In this document: piece after piece, positions 2,656 to 21,931 of the stretch
Layout: each line of letters opens with the position of its first letter
Position numbering within the stretch: the first letter of the stretch is position 1
Origin: a virus
Direction: 5' to 3' (one strand)
Virus record (IMG/VR): IMGVR_UViG_3300025879_000125
Coordinates: 1-21,931 of that record
DNA length: 21,931 bases
Translations under genes and position numbers: made by a program
The notes under the pieces: model-generated
Seen by the model: the letters and a program-made list of their open reading frames with translations, nothing else
Database searches by the model: none
What the model was told of the DNA's origin: nothing

Positions 2656-3102
2656 CTACTGTTTGTTTTTTCTAACTGCACTTCCATAAAAGTATCCGAA
2701 AATACTAAGAACAATTCCTTCGCATATACCAATAAGATGTATCCAAACCTCTTTGTTGTTCTCTGGGACCTCCAGGTATACAATTGCATATATTATAAAC
2801 GCAAAAGCAGACAATCCAATAATTCCAGTAAGGTTGAACATCAAATCAAACCCCCCAATTTTAGCCTTCTCTACCTCACGCTTTCTAGCTGAGTCTCTGT
2901 CAGCAACCTCAAGCTCATACAACTGAACAAGCTCTTCGTGCATCCTAGTCTTTTCTTCTGGACTTATATCTTTATCGTTGTCGATAAGGTTTTTTACAAT
3001 TCCCAATACACCCTTTTCTGGTAAAACATCACCAACAAATCCAGGGAGTTTCTTTAATATAAACTTTCCGACTTTAGTATCTTTAAATGGTTTTTTGCTC
3101 AT
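2656..3102 (-). CDS. holin-like membrane protein (148 aa)
   Basis: A basic N-terminal half (residues 1-87), with an acidic/basic amphipathic stretch at about 48-82 (SPEEKTRMHEELVQLYELEV), is followed by two hydrophobic helices at about 88-110 and 119-140 and a short basic tail (RKNKQ). This layout matches the two-helix, lysis-cassette holin-like proteins found in many marine phages, which have a soluble, often helical N-terminal region. It overlaps the endolysin gene by 4 nt (ATGA type), so both are made from one transcript. Assignment as the holin rests on the membrane topology and the neighbouring M15 endolysin, not on a signature motif. Confidence 0.6.
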   Translation of the reverse strand: MSKKPFKDTKVGKFILKKLPGFVGDVLPEKGVLGIVKNLIDNDKDISPEEKTRMHEELVQLYELEVADRDSARKREVEKAKIGGFDLMFNLTGIIGLSAFAFIIYAIVYLEVPENNKEVWIHLIGICEGIVLSIFGYFYGSAVRKNKQ

Positions 3103-3569
3103 ATTAACTCATATTTTGTTTTGCCATCTTCTTTATAGGCTTTCAAGCATCTTCCTCTATTTTCATGTTCAGAAACATAACTAACATGTATCCAATCTGG
3201 ATTTTTGTTATTTCCAAACTCCCATATCAACTGATCAAAGTCTAAGTTTTCCTTAATGTAATCATACATTTCAGCATTAGTCTTATAACCATACGTATCA
3301 TCGATATCCATAGCTCTACCCTGCATATGCTGTGAAGATCTACTTCCTCCAATAGCAACATTTAAGTCTTCAGACCTGAACATAGAGTTAATTTTTATTG
3401 GACCTCCAACCCACTCTCTAAGTGGTTCAAATATTTGCTCAGCCAATACCTCCATATTAGAAATATGATAGGCATCAGGAGTATTATCTATCCCCCTTCT
3501 TTTTGCTGTATAAGAAGTCGTAGCTTCATTAAAATTTATATGTTTACTTATTTTATCTATATGTTTCAC
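3099..3569 (-). CDS. M15-family peptidase endolysin
   Basis: The 156-residue protein carries the zinc-peptidase pattern of the M15 family (Peptidase_M15_3 type, D-Ala-D-Ala carboxypeptidase fold). The SxHxxGxAxD motif is at residues 79-88 (SQHMQGRAMD, giving H81 and D88 as zinc ligands), and a second histidine sits in WIHVS at residue 128. An arginine-containing SMFRSEDLN segment just before the first motif is also typical. These enzymes cut the peptide cross-links of peptidoglycan, here presumably for host lysis. There is no signal peptide, so release would depend on the holin encoded just downstream. The stop/start overlap with 3566-3880 is 4 nt. Confidence 0.9.
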   Translation of the reverse strand: MKHIDKISKHINFNEATTSYTAKRRGIDNTPDAYHISNMEVLAEQIFEPLREWVGGPIKINSMFRSEDLNVAIGGSRSSQHMQGRAMDIDDTYGYKTNAEMYDYIKENLDFDQLIWEFGNNKNPDWIHVSYVSEHENRGRCLKAYKEDGKTKYELI

Positions 3570-3880
3570 TTTAAATTCTTTAGTCTTTCATTCTCTTTCT
3601 CAAGATAATCAACCTTTACCCTCAAAGCATTAACCTCAGCTACTAAATCTAACACCTGTTGCCTAAGTTCGTCTTTCTCTTTTGAACTGTTAGCTAACAT
3701 AGACTCTAAGTTTCTAACTCTGTTTTTCAAGTCATCTCTATATTGCACGGTATCGTTATTTTCAAATTCAACTTTTTTATTATGACTATTAGCTTTTAAT
3801 CTAGCCTCAAGATACTTCCATAAAGAAGCGGAACCTAAAACACCTGCTATTGTTATTATTATTTGTACGTAATCATCCAT
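3566..3880 (-). CDS. spanin-like membrane-anchored coiled-coil protein
   Basis: The 104-residue protein has one N-terminal hydrophobic helix (about 4-20, DDYVQIIITIAGVLGSASLW), a basic linker, and then a long heptad-like stretch from about residue 50 to the end (RVRNLESMLANSSKEKDELR and following), rich in Leu, Glu and Lys. One membrane anchor plus a periplasmic coiled coil is the topology of the inner-membrane spanin (Rz-like), and its position directly before the endolysin gene fits. No separate outer-membrane lipoprotein spanin is visible nearby. A generic phage structural coiled-coil protein remains possible. Confidence 0.55.
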   Translation of the reverse strand: MDDYVQIIITIAGVLGSASLWKYLEARLKANSHNKKVEFENNDTVQYRDDLKNRVRNLESMLANSSKEKDELRQQVLDLVAEVNALRVKVDYLEKENERLKNLK

Positions 3881-4250
3881 TATCTCTCTCTGTTTTTTCT
3901 TTAAATACCCTTATTGTGTTCCAAAAAGCAAATACAAGTATGATTACCCACCCTGTACGAGAACCTTCCATTAAGCCCTCTAAGCAAAGATTAATAACCG
4001 TCATAATTGCTACTATAGAAGCGAGCTGAACTGCTATTAAACGGTACCTTAAAGATCCATTAAGTATAACTGCCCACAACTGAAACAATCCAGTAAAAAT
4101 ACCTCCCAAAATAAACAAAGGGTTAGGGTTGTGAAACTCCATAATCATAGAGGATGGTAAGGCAATAACGTGGCAAAATGCAATAAGCACCTCGTTCGGT
4201 TCACTGTCCGAATACCAAAACAAATCCTTCACTTTCTCTAACCACTTCAT
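3873..4250 (-). CDS. four-helix membrane protein of the lysis region
   Basis: The 125-residue protein has a short cytoplasm-like N-terminus (MKWLEKVKDLFWYSDSEPNE) and four hydrophobic segments at roughly 21-37, 45-64, 70-90 and 99-113, ending in a charged tail. Proteins of this kind often occur beside the endolysin in marine phages of Bacteroidetes and cyanobacteria, but I know no demonstrated function for them. It overlaps the spanin-like gene by 8 nt. It could be a second holin or antiholin, or a superinfection-exclusion protein; none of these can be chosen from sequence alone. Confidence 0.65.
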   Translation of the reverse strand: MKWLEKVKDLFWYSDSEPNEVLIAFCHVIALPSSMIMEFHNPNPLFILGGIFTGLFQLWAVILNGSLRYRLIAVQLASIVAIMTVINLCLEGLMEGSRTGWVIILVFAFWNTIRVFKEKTERDNG

Positions 4251-4256
4251 AATCAG

Positions 4257-4403
4257 TTATTTAACATAAGGAAAAAGATCATTCAATTTTTTTCTTCGCT
4301 TCTCGCACCCACAACCGCCTTTGGTTACTTTTTTAACTATAGTTTTGATGCCTGTCGCCGTAGTTATTTTATCTACTGTATCTCCTAAACCTCTGCTTCT
4401 CAT
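4257..4403 (-). CDS. small CGC-motif basic protein (48 aa)
   Basis: A compact frame starts at ATG 4403-4401 and ends TAA at 4259-4257. It encodes 48 residues with a basic middle and a striking C-terminal block GGCGCEKRRKKLNDLFPYVK. A CGC[EK]xRRxxLN...FPY tail is one I recognise from many small proteins of Bacteroidetes phages, which supports it being real despite its length. The two cysteines could bind metal but only as a pair, so a dimer or partner would be needed. It lies 3 nt after the 4407-4697 gene in the operon. Function unknown. Confidence 0.7.
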   Translation of the reverse strand: MRSRGLGDTVDKITTATGIKTIVKKVTKGGCGCEKRRKKLNDLFPYVK

Positions 4404-4406
4404 TCT

Positions 4407-4697
4407 TTAATATTTTCCTTTTTTTGATTTTGGAGAAGACTTGGTGCTTCCTCCTTTACCTGCCCATAAATGTTTACAGGACCAATATCTTGCCGTTAAC
4501 TTATCTTTAGCTGTTGAACACTTGTGTCTAGCTTTAAATGATTTTCTAGCAGCAGAAGAGTAGTTATGCCCATATCCAGAAGCTCCAAAGTGAATCAATT
4601 TTTCCTTGCCACCAGAGCAAGCCTTAACCATCTTTTTCTTTCCTGAACGGTCACTTTTAGTGACACGGTTACACTTCATTTTACTTTTTTCTGCCAT
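4407..4697 (-). CDS. small basic protein with KACSGGKEKLIHFG motif (96 aa)
   Basis: The protein is very rich in Lys and Ser and has a conserved-looking core: KKMVKACSGGKEKLIHFG, then AARKSFKARHKCSTAKDKLT and ARYWSCKHLW. This pattern (a GGK-x-KLIxFG segment, a KxFxARH-C segment and a TARYW segment) is familiar from small proteins in cyanophages, other marine phages and algal giant viruses; the cysteines and histidine suggest a possible metal site. The start overlaps the end of 4681-4941 by 17 nt. No activity is known to me. A DNA- or virion-binding role would fit the charge but is only a guess. Confidence 0.7.
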   Translation of the reverse strand: MAEKSKMKCNRVTKSDRSGKKKMVKACSGGKEKLIHFGASGYGHNYSSAARKSFKARHKCSTAKDKLTARYWSCKHLWAGKGGSTKSSPKSKKGKY

Positions 4698-5478: not shown

Positions 5479-5483
5479 TTATA

Positions 5484-6014
5484 ATGAGAAAACGAAAAAT
5501 GAGGCGAAAGTACGAGCGTAAAAATCCTACAAAGGGTTACAACGACAAAGTTAGAATCAATTATGATCGCCGCCAACCGACATTCGACTACTTAAAATAC
5601 TTTCGCATAATCCGTTATTGGGCTAAGAGGACCCACGAAGTGGGTCTCGCCGACTTAGAAATGCTACTATTTCTTTACAGTGAAAGATTATTCAAGAGAT
5701 CATACTTCAATGACTATGAAGAAATCTTTTCATGGGACAAATCAAGGTTTAATGACTTACTTCGTGATGGATGGATATCTGTATGGAGAAAAGCAAAGGG
5801 ATCAGAGCCTGCTCTATATGAAGTTTCATATAAAGGTAAAAGACTAATCGTTAGTATATATAAGAAGCTTTCAGGGGAAGAGACAATATCAGAGTCACCT
5901 CAACGCAACCCTATATTTAAAAAAAGCTCGCCTTACACCGATAAGGTATATAAGCGAGCTATAAAAAGAATGAACAAAGCTACAGAACAACAACGACGTC
6001 CCTCTCGAGAATAA
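5484..6014 (+). CDS. winged-helix-like small phage protein (176 aa)
   Basis: I place the start at ATG 5484 rather than further upstream, because the upstream part of the frame is antisense to the 5348-5431 gene and crosses the promoter region. The N-terminus is very basic (MRKRKMRRKYERKN). Residues about 35-130 look like a winged helix: helices at DYLKYFRIIRYWAKRTH and LADLEMLLFLYSERLF, a DNA-recognition-type helix near SWDKSRFNDLLRDGW, and a wing ending in YKGKRLIVSIYKKL. Similar proteins with a YKGKR...YKKL segment are common in marine phages and resemble MarR-type folds. It is the only plus-strand gene in the left third, and its last 35 nt overlap the end of groES on the other strand. A regulatory role is inferred. 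Confidence 0.75.
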   Translation: MRKRKMRRKYERKNPTKGYNDKVRINYDRRQPTFDYLKYFRIIRYWAKRTHEVGLADLEMLLFLYSERLFKRSYFNDYEEIFSWDKSRFNDLLRDGWISVWRKAKGSEPALYEVSYKGKRLIVSIYKKLSGEETISESPQRNPIFKKSSPYTDKVYKRAIKRMNKATEQQRRPSRE

Positions 6015-6237
6015 TCGTGTACTTTTTATTCTGTATTACCATTGTGTGGCCAGAAGACTTGTCATAGTATATAACATCGCCCTCTTTAACCGTATCCACG
6101 TTAGTTCCTGGGTTAACCACACGACCTTTATTGTATCTAAATTCGCTGGCATCCTCTCCAGAAAGAAGAAGGCCTGATTCGGTCTTCATCTCCTCTAATA
6201 TTTTTTCTATTATTATGTATTTATTTATAGCTTTCAT
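5980..6237 (-). CDS. groES: GroES-like co-chaperonin (85 aa)
   Basis: The protein is about ten residues shorter than cellular GroES (about 97). It keeps the fold signatures: an N-terminal strand (INKYIIIEKI), a mobile-loop region (residues about 17-32, MKTESGLLLSGEDASEF) with the hydrophobic LLL tripeptide in place of the IVL that docks onto GroEL, a GRVVNPGTN turn, and a KEGDVIYYDK then MVIQNKKYTIILERDVVVVL end. The partner is encoded two genes upstream. The ATG overlaps the stop codon of the GldL-like gene by one base (TAATG), so translation is coupled. Phage co-chaperonins usually assist capsid or tail protein folding, or replace host GroES. Confidence 0.9.
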   Translation of the reverse strand: MKAINKYIIIEKILEEMKTESGLLLSGEDASEFRYNKGRVVNPGTNVDTVKEGDVIYYDKSSGHTMVIQNKKYTIILERDVVVVL

Positions 6238-6632
6238 TATGATTTCATAGTCTTAAGAATTGAACGGTAAACAGAACTCAATGACTCAAGGTGCATATTT
6301 ACTTCTTTAAGTTTGTCTGACATACCTGTGGTTTCAGAAAAACCTTCTATTTGCTGCTCATACATCTTGTTGAGTTCTTCAATATTGTTGATTGCCACAG
6401 CAACTTGTTCATTATACCTCTTTACAGATGGTGTGTAAACACCAAATTTGTCTATTTCCTTCGGATCAGCCCCCATAGGGGTAAAAGAAGAGTATATAAA
6501 TATGCCAGCCTCTACAATCATACCGAAAGTTAGGATTTGACTCCCGTAATCCCAGTTTTGAATTTTAAATAGAACCCCTACGATAACGATAGCAGCTCCT
6601 AATCCATAAATTAAATTTTCGTACTTTCTCAT
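6237..6632 (-). CDS. GldL-like membrane protein (truncated homologue of gliding/T9SS motor subunit)
   Basis: Residues 6-52 align by eye with the N-terminal two-helix domain of GldL: YGLGAAIVIVGVLFKIQNW for helix 1 and GMIVEAGIFIYSSFTPM for helix 2. From memory, F. johnsoniae GldL has Y13, K27, E49 and E59 here; the phage protein keeps Y9, K23 and E41 (the E49 equivalent thought to couple proton flow) but has T51 where E59 would be. The C-terminal part (about 72-131: YNEQVAVAINNIEELNKMYE, LKEVNMHLESLSSVYRSILK) repeats the GldL pattern of LxxLNxxY...L..LN.VY..M. At 131 residues it is far shorter than cellular GldL (about 215). GldL and GldM form the rotary motor for type 9 secretion and gliding. 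Its overlaps with groEL (4 nt) and groES (1 nt) fix it inside the chaperonin operon. What it does in infection is unknown; blocking the host motor is one idea. Confidence 0.8.
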   Translation of the reverse strand: MRKYENLIYGLGAAIVIVGVLFKIQNWDYGSQILTFGMIVEAGIFIYSSFTPMGADPKEIDKFGVYTPSVKRYNEQVAVAINNIEELNKMYEQQIEGFSETTGMSDKLKEVNMHLESLSSVYRSILKTMKS

Positions 6633-8173
6633 CTTTTCAAAGTTACAATTGCATTAGTGGTTAATATAGTTGTCGCAACCGACACTGCATTTTTAAGTGC
6701 ATTTTTTGTTACCTTAGCCGGGTCAATTACTCCCATCTTATACATATTTCCGTATTTATCGTTTTTGACATCCCATCCTTCGCCGAAAGCCCCAGCGGTA
6801 GATGGGTACATTTTTCCAGCGTTATCAACAATCTGCTTAAATGGAGCCCTCATTGCATTTCCAACAATTGAACTTGCATTAGAATTCATCTCCAAAACAT
6901 CTTTAGAGAAGTGTAGTAACGCCGAACCACCTCCAGGAAGTATTCCCTCCTCTAAAGCTGAGCGTACAGCACACACCGCATCCTCAACTCTGTCGTATAA
7001 CTCCTTCTGTTCGATATCAGAATCCCCACCTACATATACCACACCAACACCACCTGATAAACTAGCGATCCTGTCGTTGATGAAATCTCTGTCTGATTTG
7101 TTTTGAGCTCGTTCACGAGCTTCTTTTAGCTCAGAAATTCTTTCACTGACCTCTTGAGAACGATCTTCGTCACGAACTATGACGGTCTGTGTCGGAGAAA
7201 CGACAACTTTCTGTGCATGACCAAGATCGGACATGGTAATTAAGCTTAAATCATCTCCAGTATCTTCAGAAAAATACTTAGCACCGACAGAAAGTGCAAT
7301 GTCAGACATCAATTCCTTAGTCTTGTACCCAAATTGAGGCGGTGTTATGTTACAGATTTTTAATCCGTTCTTCACAACGTTCATCCCTAGGGTGTTGATT
7401 ACGTTTTGTGAACACTTACCTATAATAAGTATCTTCTTATTGCCCTGAATTATAGGCTTAAGTACGTTTTCTATGTTTAGAATGCTATTGACTTCAAGAT
7501 CCGTAGCCAAAATATACACATCATCTAAGATACACTCGTCATTTTTCTGATTATTGATGAATAATCGGCTAGTATGACCCCTATCAATCTTGATTCCGTT
7601 GGTAACCTCGTAGTAAGTATCGCTAGTCTGGCTATTCTCAACAGTAACAACACCGTCTTGACCTACCATCTTGTATATATTACTAACAAGTTTACCTAAT
7701 TCCTTGTCATTATTGGAAGATATCGTCGCAACATCTCTCAATGTACGCCCCGTTACCTTCTTAGACTTTTTAGATAGACTATTTATAACCCAATCCGATA
7801 CACGATTAATCTCACGAACAAGTTCTGATACATTTATAGTAGGGTTTTGCTGAATAATACGCATACCTTCAACAACAATAGCCTCTGTGAGCACGATTGC
7901 TGTGGTTGTTCCGTCTCCTGCTGAGGTTGCTGTTCTATCAGCTGCCTCTTTCACCATGCGTACTGCTAAGTTTTCTACAGGATCCTGTAAGTTAATTGCT
8001 TTTGCTACAGTTACACCATCTTTTGTTACTGTTAATCCACGAGTGTGGACCTGTGATTCTAATATTACTGTATTTCCTAAAGGACCTAGTGTACTTTTTA
8101 CTGCCTTAGATATCTTCTCGATACCGCTAATCAGCTTGTCACGACCTTCTTGATCAAAAAATAGTTCATTCAT
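6629..8173 (-). CDS. groEL: GroEL chaperonin (514 aa)
   Basis: Signature segments are all in place: TLGPLGNTVIL near residue 28, KDGVTVAKAINL near 52, the ATP-binding GDGTTTA near 86-92 with the catalytic-type aspartate at about D87, and late in the protein RVEDAVCAVRSALEEGILPG followed by GGSALL. The sequence stops at TTNAIVTLKR and lacks the flexible Gly-Gly-Met tail of E. coli GroEL. I chose ATG 8173-8171; an in-frame TTG at 8182 would add three residues but is a poor start. Phage chaperonins of this size form folding rings for virion proteins and can work with or without GroES. A strong promoter lies 21-52 nt upstream, and the stop codon overlaps the start of the GldL-like gene. Confidence 0.95.
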   Translation of the reverse strand: MNELFFDQEGRDKLISGIEKISKAVKSTLGPLGNTVILESQVHTRGLTVTKDGVTVAKAINLQDPVENLAVRMVKEAADRTATSAGDGTTTAIVLTEAIVVEGMRIIQQNPTINVSELVREINRVSDWVINSLSKKSKKVTGRTLRDVATISSNNDKELGKLVSNIYKMVGQDGVVTVENSQTSDTYYEVTNGIKIDRGHTSRLFINNQKNDECILDDVYILATDLEVNSILNIENVLKPIIQGNKKILIIGKCSQNVINTLGMNVVKNGLKICNITPPQFGYKTKELMSDIALSVGAKYFSEDTGDDLSLITMSDLGHAQKVVVSPTQTVIVRDEDRSQEVSERISELKEARERAQNKSDRDFINDRIASLSGGVGVVYVGGDSDIEQKELYDRVEDAVCAVRSALEEGILPGGGSALLHFSKDVLEMNSNASSIVGNAMRAPFKQIVDNAGKMYPSTAGAFGEGWDVKNDKYGNMYKMGVIDPAKVTKNALKNAVSVATTILTTNAIVTLKR

Positions 8174-13571: not shown

Positions 13572-13890
13572 GTCTGGCTCTGTGTTTATAGATACAAAGA
13601 AATATGAGTCTGTTATATACAAGGGAATAAAGGTTGTAAGAGGCGATTATGGTATAAAGATATACTCTACAGAGACTGAATTTTATAAAGACATTACAAA
13701 AGAGTTTGTTATGGATAGTTTCACAATAGGTGTTAAGGAGCATCTCAAGAAAAAATATCTAAAGACATTAGATAGGATTGAGAGAGCCATAAAGAAGAAC
13801 TTAAATGGCAGTAAGAATCACAAAAGATTTTCTTACTTAAAAACAATGAGAGAAAACATAATAAACAAATATAATGAAATCAATACTTAA
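13531..13890 (+). CDS. hypothetical phage protein, MATLEQIW type (119 aa)
   Basis: I place the start at ATG 13531 (MATLEQIWIQARNKSGSVF). The frame is open to ATG 13507, but the extra residues come from the DNA repeat of the overlapping gene, and MATLExIW is the usual beginning I associate with these marine phage proteins. The N-terminal half has a small beta part (SVIYKGIKVVRGDYGIKIYS), and the C-terminal half is a helical pair rich in Lys and Arg (LKTLDRIERAIKKNLNGSKN). It overlaps the nuclease gene by 17 nt. Function unknown. Confidence 0.65.
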   Translation: MATLEQIWIQARNKSGSVFIDTKKYESVIYKGIKVVRGDYGIKIYSTETEFYKDITKEFVMDSFTIGVKEHLKKKYLKTLDRIERAIKKNLNGSKNHKRFSYLKTMRENIINKYNEINT

Positions 13891-14596
13891 AAAACTTCAG
13901 GACGACAAACACTACTATGGAGCTTATGGTCGTAAGTATCTGTCTAACAGTAACATAGGTTTATTGTTAACTAATCCAAGAGATTTTGGAAAACCTCAAG
14001 AAGAGAGGCTGCCAATGGTACAAGGGAGGTACTTCCACGTATCTATGTTGGAGCCACACAAGAAGGACGATTTTGAGATTGTTGATGCATCAAGTCGTAA
14101 CACAAAAATTTACAAGGAGAAGTCACAAGGTAGGTTAATGCTACTTAGAAAGGAGAAGGAGGCTTTAGACAGAGCTATACAGTGTATGAAGGATAACGAA
14201 TCACTCTCATCAGAAATATTTTCAGATGGTGTACAGTACGAGGTCCCAATGATCGGTGAGTTCTTTGGTGTAGATTTCAAGGGTAAGGCGGATATCATTA
14301 CGGATGATAAGATTATCGACATAAAAACATCTACAGGTATTGGTAACTTCAAGACGAAGGCGAGGATGTATAACTACGACAGCCAAGCGTTTATATACAG
14401 CTCTATGTTTGATAAGCCTTTTGAGTTCTTTGTGATAGACAAGGACACGCTACAGATGAAGAGGTTCACATGTAGTGACGAGTTCCTTGAGAGAGGGAGA
14501 GATAAGGTAGAGAGGGCTGTTAACGTGTGGAAGAGGTTCTTTGGACCAGAAGCTACGGACGATGTAACGCAGTACGTTATGAACGAGGTGTTATAA
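13874..14596 (+). CDS. PD-(D/E)XK nuclease, RecB/exonuclease VIII-like (copy 1, 240 aa)
   Basis: The conserved nuclease core is visible: G-R-Y-F-H55 in the first helix, E123 in YEVP, D140 in KGKAD, the D149-I-K151 pair in IIDIKT, and YDSQAFIY with Q171. This is the order of residues in PD-(D/E)XK exonucleases of the RecB/YqaJ/DUF3799 group, which degrade one DNA strand for recombination or act on host DNA. A clear paralogue begins at 21265, where it follows an ERF protein; this copy has no annealing protein beside it. Codons are richer in G and C than in the second half of the window. Confidence 0.85.
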   Translation: MKSILKKLQDDKHYYGAYGRKYLSNSNIGLLLTNPRDFGKPQEERLPMVQGRYFHVSMLEPHKKDDFEIVDASSRNTKIYKEKSQGRLMLLRKEKEALDRAIQCMKDNESLSSEIFSDGVQYEVPMIGEFFGVDFKGKADIITDDKIIDIKTSTGIGNFKTKARMYNYDSQAFIYSSMFDKPFEFFVIDKDTLQMKRFTCSDEFLERGRDKVERAVNVWKRFFGPEATDDVTQYVMNEVL

Positions 14597-19337: not shown

Positions 19338-19952
19338 ATGTCACGTAGAATGCAGTATTTACATAATAACAAAATAATATACAGGAAGTATCCTAATTCT
19401 GATAAACCTACTGAGGTATATTCTTGGGGATGGTTTTATAAAGATGGTACTTACCAATGTTACGAGTTATTTAGAAGTAAAGCACAGATAACAACATACA
19501 AGTCTTTAAAGTGGCATTTGCTTGTGTTATGGTACTTAAACCCTCAGCTTAATCCTGAAACTTTTGAAAATTTAGCATATATAATATCGAATAAGTCAAA
19601 TAATTTTACTACATTCGATATACCTGAACAGTTACTGAAGCAAATGATATACGAAATCAGTATGATGGACTTAGACAGCCCACCTAAAAATAAAAGAAGA
19701 AAAGTTATTTTTAAAGATCAAACAGGTTTGTCTAAAAGTGAAAAGTTATCTATAGTAGGTAAATTGATTGGGAGAAGTAGTAAAGCTAGTCCAGAAGATA
19801 TTTATGAGACAATGCTACTATTACATGATGATAGTAAGAAAATAACAATTTCCGCTATCGCTAGAGTATTAGGTGTGTCAACTAGAACTATATATAGGAA
19901 TATGACGCATGAATTAACAAAAGAAAAGGAACTTTTAAATGAAAAAATATAA
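19338..19952 (+). CDS. HTH transcriptional regulator-like protein (204 aa)
   Basis: The N-terminal part is aromatic-rich and beta-like (YSWGWFYKDGTYQCYELFRS). The C-terminal part ends in a clear helix-turn-helix, residues about 168-190 (KITISAIARVLGVSTRTIYR), preceded by two helices (SKSEKLSIVGKLIGRSSKAS). It overlaps the sigma-factor gene by 14 nt, which ties it to transcription control. It could be an activator for phage promoters. Confidence 0.7.
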   Translation: MSRRMQYLHNNKIIYRKYPNSDKPTEVYSWGWFYKDGTYQCYELFRSKAQITTYKSLKWHLLVLWYLNPQLNPETFENLAYIISNKSNNFTTFDIPEQLLKQMIYEISMMDLDSPPKNKRRKVIFKDQTGLSKSEKLSIVGKLIGRSSKASPEDIYETMLLLHDDSKKITISAIARVLGVSTRTIYRNMTHELTKEKELLNEKI

Positions 19953-20700
19953 TATACAAAACTATGTAAGATACAAAGAAGATGTTAAGACTTCTATATG
20001 CAATCTTGAAGGTAAGTTTTGGGATGAGTATACACGAGATGAACTTATCATAAAGTTTTTACCTTTAGTAGAAAATATAGCTAGAAAATTTTCAACCACT
20101 CAACAAGCTTCAGGTGTGTTAACTATAAATGATTTAATACAAGAAGGTAGTTTAGGTTTAATTGCAGCTATAGATAGAATAGATTGGGAATGGCTTAATA
20201 AAAGCGACAATATAGAAGTAACACTTAAATCATTTCTTAGTAAGCGAATAAGAGGAGCTATAAGAAGATCTATAGATATTAATAGAGGAGACATGCGAAT
20301 ACCTGAGCACAAGCTAAATGAAATTAGAAAGAACTCAAGTAAAGATAAGTTAATAGTTGAAACATTTTTTAATCAAATATTTTTAAGTATAGACAATAAG
20401 CCAGATACTGACGACGAAAATTCTATTTTTCAAATCGCTGATAATTCTGAACCGTATAACATACAGCTTTTAAATGCTTATTTGTTAGGCATAATGAAAG
20501 AACACTTAACAGATAAAGAATATGAAGTTATAAGGTTGTCTTATGGATTAGATTGTGATAAAATGCCAGCAAAAGCTATTGCAGATAAACTTAAAATTAA
20601 TGGCACCGCTAGTTATGTAAGAGTTTCTCAAATAAAAAAAGAAGCTATTGATAAATTAGTAGAGAATGTACCAGCTAGTCAAGTTATTGATTACTTATAA
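19939..20700 (+). CDS. sigma-70 family RNA polymerase sigma factor (253 aa)
   Basis: Region 2 lies at about residues 35-112: FLPLVENIARKFS, then LTINDLIQEGSLGLIAAIDR (the core-binding helix, with DLIQEGxxGL conserved) and FLSKRIRGAIRRSIDINRGD, including a region 3-like MRIPEHKLNEI. Region 4 lies at about 185-242 (LTDKEYEVIRLSYGLDCDKM, then IADKLKINGTASYVRVSQIK). It starts 14 nt before the end of the HTH gene. By family it directs the host RNA polymerase to phage promoters; the 31-nt motif upstream in this block is a candidate target. Confidence 0.9.
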   Translation: MKKYNIQNYVRYKEDVKTSICNLEGKFWDEYTRDELIIKFLPLVENIARKFSTTQQASGVLTINDLIQEGSLGLIAAIDRIDWEWLNKSDNIEVTLKSFLSKRIRGAIRRSIDINRGDMRIPEHKLNEIRKNSSKDKLIVETFFNQIFLSIDNKPDTDDENSIFQIADNSEPYNIQLLNAYLLGIMKEHLTDKEYEVIRLSYGLDCDKMPAKAIADKLKINGTASYVRVSQIKKEAIDKLVENVPASQVIDYL

Positions 20701-20729: not shown

Positions 20730-21272
20730 ATGAACATTCACGAGAAACTAAGTAAAATTCAAAAAGAATTTAAAGCGAAGAAGAGTCGTTTTAATTCGTT
20801 TGGGAAATATAATTTCCGATCTGCTGAAGATATACTTGAAGCATTAAAACCTTTTAATGAAAAGTATAAAGTTTATTTTACAGTAGACGAAAGTTATTTA
20901 GGAGATGGAGTTATTGAATCTCACGCATCTATTATAGACGCTGAAGGAGGAATGACTATTACTGCTAAAGCAATCGTGGGAGTAGATTTTAATCAAAAAG
21001 GTATGCAAGTACCTCAGCAATTTGGATCAGCTTCCAGTTACGGAAAAAAATATTCCCTCGGTAATCTTTTACTTATTGATGACACTGCAGACGCAGATGC
21101 AACTAATACACACGGCCGTGACCAAAAGAAAAGTAAGCCAGCATTAAATCCTGGTACCGATGCTTTTACTAAAGCTATCGAATATATTAAATCTGGCGGA
21201 ACACTAAGTGCTATAGATGCAAAGTATAATGTTAGTGCCGCTGCTAAAGCAGAACTAAAAAAATATGAATAA
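20730..21272 (+). CDS. erf: ERF-family single-strand annealing protein (180 aa)
   Basis: The ERF pattern is visible: NIHEKLSKIQKEFKAKKSRF, YNFRSAEDILEALKPFNEKY and the key MQVPQQFGSASSYGKKYSLG followed by NLLLIDDTADAD, corresponding to the family's QxxGAxxSYxRRYxLxxLLxIxxxDDD. The C-terminal 50 residues are a small helical domain. ERF proteins anneal complementary strands during phage recombination. The nuclease gene that starts 8 nt before its end would supply the single strands, as in exonuclease/annealase pairs. Confidence 0.9.
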   Translation: MNIHEKLSKIQKEFKAKKSRFNSFGKYNFRSAEDILEALKPFNEKYKVYFTVDESYLGDGVIESHASIIDAEGGMTITAKAIVGVDFNQKGMQVPQQFGSASSYGKKYSLGNLLLIDDTADADATNTHGRDQKKSKPALNPGTDAFTKAIEYIKSGGTLSAIDAKYNVSAAAKAELKKYE

Positions 21273-21931
21273 AAATGAGATAATAGAGAAGTTAAAAGAC
21301 GACGAAAATTACTACGGTGCGTTCGGAAAACAATACCTAAGTAATTCAGATATTGGAACCTTATTAGCAGATCCTTTGCAATACGGTAAACCAACTGCTG
21401 CATCACCAAACTTGATAATGGGTGGGTACTTTCACACAGCTATTCTTGAACCTAATAAATTAGAAAGGTTTAAAATAATTGACGCTAGTACACGTAACAC
21501 TAAGGCATACAAAGAGTTATCAGGAGGAGAAATGTGTATGCTTCAAAAAGAAGCTGACAACATTAATCTAATGCGTGAGAAGTTGATGGAGAACAATGTA
21601 GCTAAAGGATTAATCCAGGGTGACAATGTAGAGTATGAGAAACCTGGAATTATAGAGTTAGCTAATAATATGTGGAAAGGTAAAGCTGATATAATAAATC
21701 ACGAAGAGAAGTTAATTATAGACTTGAAAACAACTAGTAACATAAACAATTTTAGGTCTTCAGCTCGCAAGTGGAATTATGATAGTCAAGCTTATATCTA
21801 TAGTAAATTATTTGGATATGAATTTTTATTCATTGCAATAGACAAAATTTCGCATATTATTGGTATATTCGATTGTTCAACGGATTTTTATGAATCTGGT
21901 AAGAGAAAAGTTGAGGAAGCAAGTGCTGCTT
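21265..21931 (+). CDS. PD-(D/E)XK nuclease, RecB/exonuclease VIII-like (copy 2, runs off right edge)
   Basis: ATG 21265 opens a frame running to the edge (222 residues). The core residues align with copy 1 at 13874: GGYFH57, YE125KP, KGKAD142, IID153LK155 and YDSQAYIY with Q175. The two proteins share long similar stretches (YYGAxGxxYLSNSxIGxLL, IxDASxRNTKxYKE) but have different codon choice. It overlaps the ERF gene by 8 nt, forming a recombination pair. The C-terminus lies outside the window. Confidence 0.85.
   Translation, partial: MNKNEIIEKLKDDENYYGAFGKQYLSNSDIGTLLADPLQYGKPTAASPNLIMGGYFHTAILEPNKLERFKIIDASTRNTKAYKELSGGEMCMLQKEADNINLMREKLMENNVAKGLIQGDNVEYEKPGIIELANNMWKGKADIINHEEKLIIDLKTTSNINNFRSSARKWNYDSQAYIYSKLFGYEFLFIAIDKISHIIGIFDCSTDFYESGKRKVEEASAA

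Follow-up and report, generated by a model that had tools for sequence, protein, structure and literature searches.

GldL is a bacterial protein that assembles into a ring, and this ring drives protein secretion and gliding. In Flavobacterium johnsoniae, the GldL mutation E49A abolishes secretion, while E59A leaves SprB secretion intact and abolishes SprB movement and gliding (PMC8986121). Mutations Y13A and K27A reduce secretion (PMC9127263), and in P. gingivalis the C-terminus of PorL has a hydrophobic patch to which PorX binds (PMC5005315). Gliding and T9SS genes are needed for flavophage adsorption, and mutants in gliding genes resist phages (PMC13288928).

Many flavobacterial phages rely on the host's gliding/T9SS surface, and motor parts encoded by a phage are apparently new: in line with an earlier sequence-only reading of this DNA, which knew of no such system, we found no description of a phage GldL or GldM in the open-licence literature. 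A cryophage, also a Bacteroidota phage engaging the host T9SS, carries genes for secreted cargo bearing sorting tails (PMC7468147). The phages described here, on the other hand, encode a motor subunit, and the PF18962 sorting tail was found in none of 28 virus records (two near relatives and the GldL/GldM carriers). Nothing here indicates that they need secretion for proteins of their own. Phage host-takeover and auxiliary metabolic genes are likewise host-derived and kept by selection in phage operons; here, however, the function is that of a rotary, proton-driven secretion and gliding motor.

The window, that is, the whole stretch of DNA analysed, is the virus contig IMGVR_UViG_3300025879_000125 of IMG/VR (21,931 bases, positions 1-21,931). 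The features of its gldL locus are as follows:

6629..8173 (-), phage groEL, 514 aa (Cpn60, 2.4e-51; phrog_5725, 5e-130)
6237..6632 (-), phage gldL, 131 aa, a compact GldL/PorL homologue (TIGR03513, GldL_N and PDB matches)
6510..6512 (-), codon of E41, equivalent of the essential proton-path glutamate E49, invariant in the alignment
6480..6482 (-), codon of T51, aligned with E59, threonine in the window virus only
6237..6632 (unstranded), inserted segment, 395 bp net, missing from the homologous groEL-groES junction of relative L038
5980..6237 (-), phage groES, 85 aa (Cpn10, 8.4e-13; phrog_3188, 1e-17)

The groEL stop and the gldL start share 4 nt (ATGA), and the gldL stop and the groES start share 1 nt (TAATG); the coordinates thus bear out the 131-residue frame with 4-nt and 1-nt overlaps that had been described between the two chaperonin genes. 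The same virus is represented by another record (29 kb, 99.9% DNA identity over 14.5 kb), which also has groEL-gldL-groES, its gldL differing from the window copy by 1 nt.

The GldL likeness proposed from the sequence is confirmed by profiles and by solved GldL chains. The protein scores 77.1 bits against the NCBIfam equivalog TIGR03513 (cut-off 68.3, in two matched stretches) and 67.9 bits against Pfam GldL_N (E 8.9e-19), while phmmer against the PDB returned the GldL/PorL entries 6ys8, 7sau, 7saz and 7sat at 1e-11 to 4e-10. In the best of these matches a weaker C-terminal stretch was also aligned, around KRYNEQ..LNKMYE. With a match so far beyond chance, the window frame is a true GldL/PorL homologue, and the five other viral copies tested (5/5) also pass TIGR03513, at 86-132 bits. 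The sequence-only reading had named the lack of a GldL profile match, or a holin, as what would speak against it; the GldL profile is matched, and no holin family occurs among the Pfam and PHROGs matches of the 131-aa protein, which speaks against a holin identity.

Compared with GldL/PorL of the Bacteroidota T9SS/gliding motor (TIGR03513, PF22827), the window protein shares the membrane hairpin, Y13/K27/E49 and the C-terminal Y...L motif. Cellular GldL/PorL, however, is encoded in gldKLMN and has 203-351 aa, whereas the window copy has 131 aa, lies in a phage groEL-groES operon and carries T at E59 and N at H30. To follow single residues, we aligned 79 cellular GldL, 18 other distinct viral copies and the window protein (98 sequences, F. 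johnsoniae numbering). The window residues Y9, K23, E41 and T51 pair with Y13, K27, E49 and E59, respectively, so that the residue assignments of the sequence-only reading were right, both for the kept proton-path glutamate (E41) and for threonine in place of the second one (T51). Tyr13, Lys27 and Glu49 are invariant in 79/79 cellular and 19/19 distinct viral proteins, the window included; alignment, structural model and hydropathy all place them in two transmembrane helices of the window protein. The glutamate at the end of helix 2 is missing: the window protein departs from two conserved sites, H30N and E59T. Site 59 is glutamate in 66 cellular proteins, glutamine in 9 and aspartate in 4, and in other viruses 15 copies have glutamate and 2 aspartate. 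Since nine cellular GldL (from Hymenobacter, Pontibacter and Sporocytophaga) carry glutamine there, this site tolerates change.

The second departure of the window protein is its size. The linker from helix 2 to the C-terminal KxY segment measures 19 residues, against 73-98 in cells, which amounts to a loss of about 55-60 residues of cytoplasmic linker, and the C-terminal segment has 61 residues instead of 74. The shortened C-terminus noted from the sequence is therefore real, and the full-length cytoplasmic domain (about 150 residues) is absent. AlphaFold predicts helices at 3-25 and 32-50 (the membrane hairpin) and at 68-98 and 105-130 (cytoplasmic), with a mean pLDDT of 61.6, about 80 in the hairpin and low confidence overall; a fold search with this low-confidence monomer gave a best E of 0.69, with no GldL structure among its matches. 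One might speculate that a shorter cytoplasmic part could alter PorX-type control of the motor. A minimal GldL of hairpin and short tail, and a GldL lacking E59, would be useful tools for asking which part of the protein anchors or regulates the motor.

A cytoplasmic part shortened in every viral copy, together with E59T in the window, would suit a dominant-negative poison, an option also raised by the sequence-only reading: a short GldL that is built into the pentamers of host GldL and blocks or uncouples the motor, leaving receptor adhesins undisplayed or unmoved (superinfection exclusion, gliding arrest). The phage resistance of gliding-gene mutants (PMC13288928) points the same way. A poison, however, does not need Tyr13, Lys27 and Glu49, yet all three are found in the 19 viral proteins, and we regard this explanation as rather unlikely.

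Profile scans of IMG/VR found GldL in 30 contigs, a third scan adding none. The viral genes occupy three genomic positions, all in flavobacterial phages of a single terminase lineage:

Position A, groEL-gldL-groES: the window and L001
Position B, late module ahead of terminase, with a 3TM holin adjacent or close by: L165-L183; L204, in different order
Position C, early module, gldL flanked by DUF3127 and primase genes and preceded by a PDDEXK nuclease: L208-L216

The groEL-gldL-groES synteny that the sequence-only reading proposed to look for is seen in the window and L001. Terminase family phrog_6681 is common to A (via its relative L038), B and C where records reach far enough, and related terminases occur in isolates infecting Flavobacterium, Cellulophaga, Maribacter and Tenacibaculum (Bacteroidota). 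Each of the records checked carries a single gldL (17/17). In clade C the linker is kept and the C-terminal segment is the part cut down (38-39 residues vs 74); these proteins have 175-181 aa (e.g. L211:5184-5729) and lie between DUF3127 and a BT4734-like primase. In clade B (L167:6637-7242 and homologues) a 201-aa protein with a GroES-like match (phrog_13932) follows gldL at a distance of a few genes, and the usual groES stands next to groEL as well.

Among the phage isolates of INPHARED, GldL was not found. The UNVERIFIED phage record MT839621, with GldL and GldM, was discarded, as by its flanking genes (judged by eye) it looks like a bacterial PorP-GldK-GldL-GldM-GldN operon. This entry (MT839621.1, L241) is a GenBank 'Bacteriophage sp.' from human faeces; by eye, an AbiEii-like unit of two genes also seems to be present at 2822-4424.

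The genomic positions bear directly on two of the explanations. The early placement in clade C, where gldL adjoins replication genes, would suit exclusion and hence a poison. The late placement in clade B and L204, near or next to the 3TM holin gene, would instead fit a lysis helper, in which protons leaking through the GldL hairpin reduce the proton-motive force and set the moment of holin triggering; the window also has its lysis genes on the gldL strand, some 2-3.5 kb downstream. But clade C gldL sits in an early primase/nuclease module and the window gldL within groEL-groES, and a plain leak needs neither a GldM partner nor the GldL C-terminal motif, conserved in nearly all copies. A role in lysis is accordingly very unlikely.

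One virus, represented by L181 and L182, goes further than a single subunit. In L181, gldL is followed by a complete gldM of 530 aa upstream of terminase (L181:4974-7010; L182 has the same coordinates). This GldM has all four Pfam domains, scores 357 bits against TIGR03517 (cut-off 180, residues 1-521 in L181), keeps R9 and Y17 and is 47% identical to Salegentibacter GldM; the model of the L181 protein, full-length with its transmembrane helix and four periplasmic domains, matches GldM/PorM structures at 6e-41 (6ey4, 7cmg, 6ys8). It thus shares with cellular GldM/PorM (TIGR03517) the four domains, R9 and Y17, and differs in being phage-encoded, its gene lying ahead of terminase with gldL on one side and small late genes on the other. 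L181/L182 therefore appear, from their gene content, to encode a whole GldLM motor; a complete pair of this kind would mean a virus carrying an entire rotary motor. In the window, by contrast, the neighbours of gldL are groEL and groES. No GldM was found in the longer record of the window virus (a fragment), in other GldL phage records, including those of 54-60 kb, or elsewhere in viral contigs beyond L186, a partial copy and 91% relative.

A full-length GldM looks like part of a working motor and speaks further against a poison. Together with the conserved ion-path residues and the purifying selection described below, it would agree with a role in motor support, in which phage GldL (once GldL plus GldM) sustains secretion and gliding during host shut-off so that the infected cell feeds and spreads. 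Phages supply photosystem proteins, a parallel for such support. But the other GldL phages have no GldM in their records, even the 54-60 kb ones; the truncations and E59T speak against plain replacement, and no T9SS cargo is found in these phages. We consider this reading unlikely.

How the window arrangement arose can be read from L038, the phage with the nearest groEL (88% protein identity): its junction is empty, the same ATGA serving as the overlap of groEL with groES. Aligned with the window, it leaves a single 395-column gap flanked by 79% and 82% identity, and from this empty site we infer the precise insertion of a 395-bp gene between groEL and groES. Of 79 phage groEL loci, about one in five has other small open reading frames in the junction, and these vary (L016, L022-L027, L034, L036, L039, L040, L042, L043 and others). 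With the abutting genes of L038, they make the junction look like an insertion hot spot, and so a place in flavobacterial phages to seek further host-takeover genes.

The position of gldL beside groEL is then probably incidental. The functional tie to GroEL raised by the sequence-only reading was not supported: L038 lacks gldL, the junction is variable in relatives, and other phages carry gldL kilobases away (clade B, far from groEL) or in an early module. Dependence on GroEL is not needed as a reason for the location.

A hot spot with other small frames, and relatives of which most lack gldL (1/50 carries it), could also mean a passenger gene, cellular DNA caught at the junction with no phage function. 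Selection argues otherwise. The dN/dS ratio ranges from 0.05 to 0.42 within clade B and from 0.09 to 0.19 within clade C; the estimates come from these two clades, the two records of the window virus differing at one site only. In both clades viral gldL is under purifying selection. With ratios well below 1, invariant functional residues and repeated acquisition, a mere passenger is highly improbable.

In the phylogeny, the window copy and those of clade B group with Winogradskyella-type Flavobacteriaceae (Lacinutrix, Bizionia, Kordia, Leeuwenhoekiella), L181 with Aquimarina and relatives, and clade C on the Crocinitomicaceae/Hymenobacter side. A single origin of all viral GldL is rejected (AU p 0.017), as is a common origin of A, B and L181 when clade C is left out (AU p 0.024), both with long branches and a short alignment, for which reason we count only at least two, and probably three, origins. 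If L181 is separate from A and B, its loss of the same linker would be convergent.

Taken globally, the residues needed only for proton-driven function are kept and the cytoplasmic parts are lost. On this ground we favour, with a probability of about 0.5, the reading that phage GldL is a host-derived, cut-down stator subunit that retunes a still proton-conducting T9SS/gliding motor for host takeover; we judge this the most likely explanation, ahead of poison and motor support. The presence of Tyr13, Lys27 and Glu49 in every viral copy, with the complete GldM, makes a motor that works or is retuned more likely than an inert poison. Against it stand the low-confidence AlphaFold monomer without a GldL fold match and the window substitutions H30N and E59T.

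Mechanistically, a viral GldL that came from a flavobacterial host and was retained for host takeover would be made during infection and inserted in the inner membrane, where it may join host GldM, alone or mixed with host GldL, to form 5:2 GldLM motors. Such motors would still conduct protons without the cytoplasmic segment and, in the window phage, without E59. By analogy with E59A, they would drive secretion and no longer adhesin movement; infected cells would cease to glide or would alter their surface, with relevance for phage adsorption, superinfection or release. A more tentative extension is that phages repeatedly capture and streamline the stator in order to replace or retune the host motor, with E59T in the window as a possible secretion-on, gliding-off switch. 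The repeated uptake of GldL by this virus, whose hosts are marine gliding bacteria, and by its relatives suggests that these viruses take control of the host rotary motor in infection, and viral GldL may be useful for the question of how secretion and gliding uncouple.

Among the other genes of the window, a likely lysis cassette occupies 2656-4250 (-):

3873-4250 (-), further hydrophobic open reading frame
3566-3880 (-), Rz-like coiled coil
3099-3569 (-), M15 endolysin
2656-3102 (-), possible holin, 29% identical to an open reading frame beside clade B gldL

A 177-aa protein at 5481-6014 (+) is convergent with groES and shares 35 nt with its 3' end; it belongs to phrog_17028, is annotated as a repressor in MW202828, and is conserved beside groES across related phages on either strand. 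The phage also has two diverged copies of a PDDEXK nuclease (DUF3799), at 13874-14596 (+) and 21265-21930 (+), the second after an ERF recombinase (20730-21272). Finally, a phage sigma-70-like factor with regions 2 and 4 is encoded at 19939-20700 (+), with an HTH protein just upstream.
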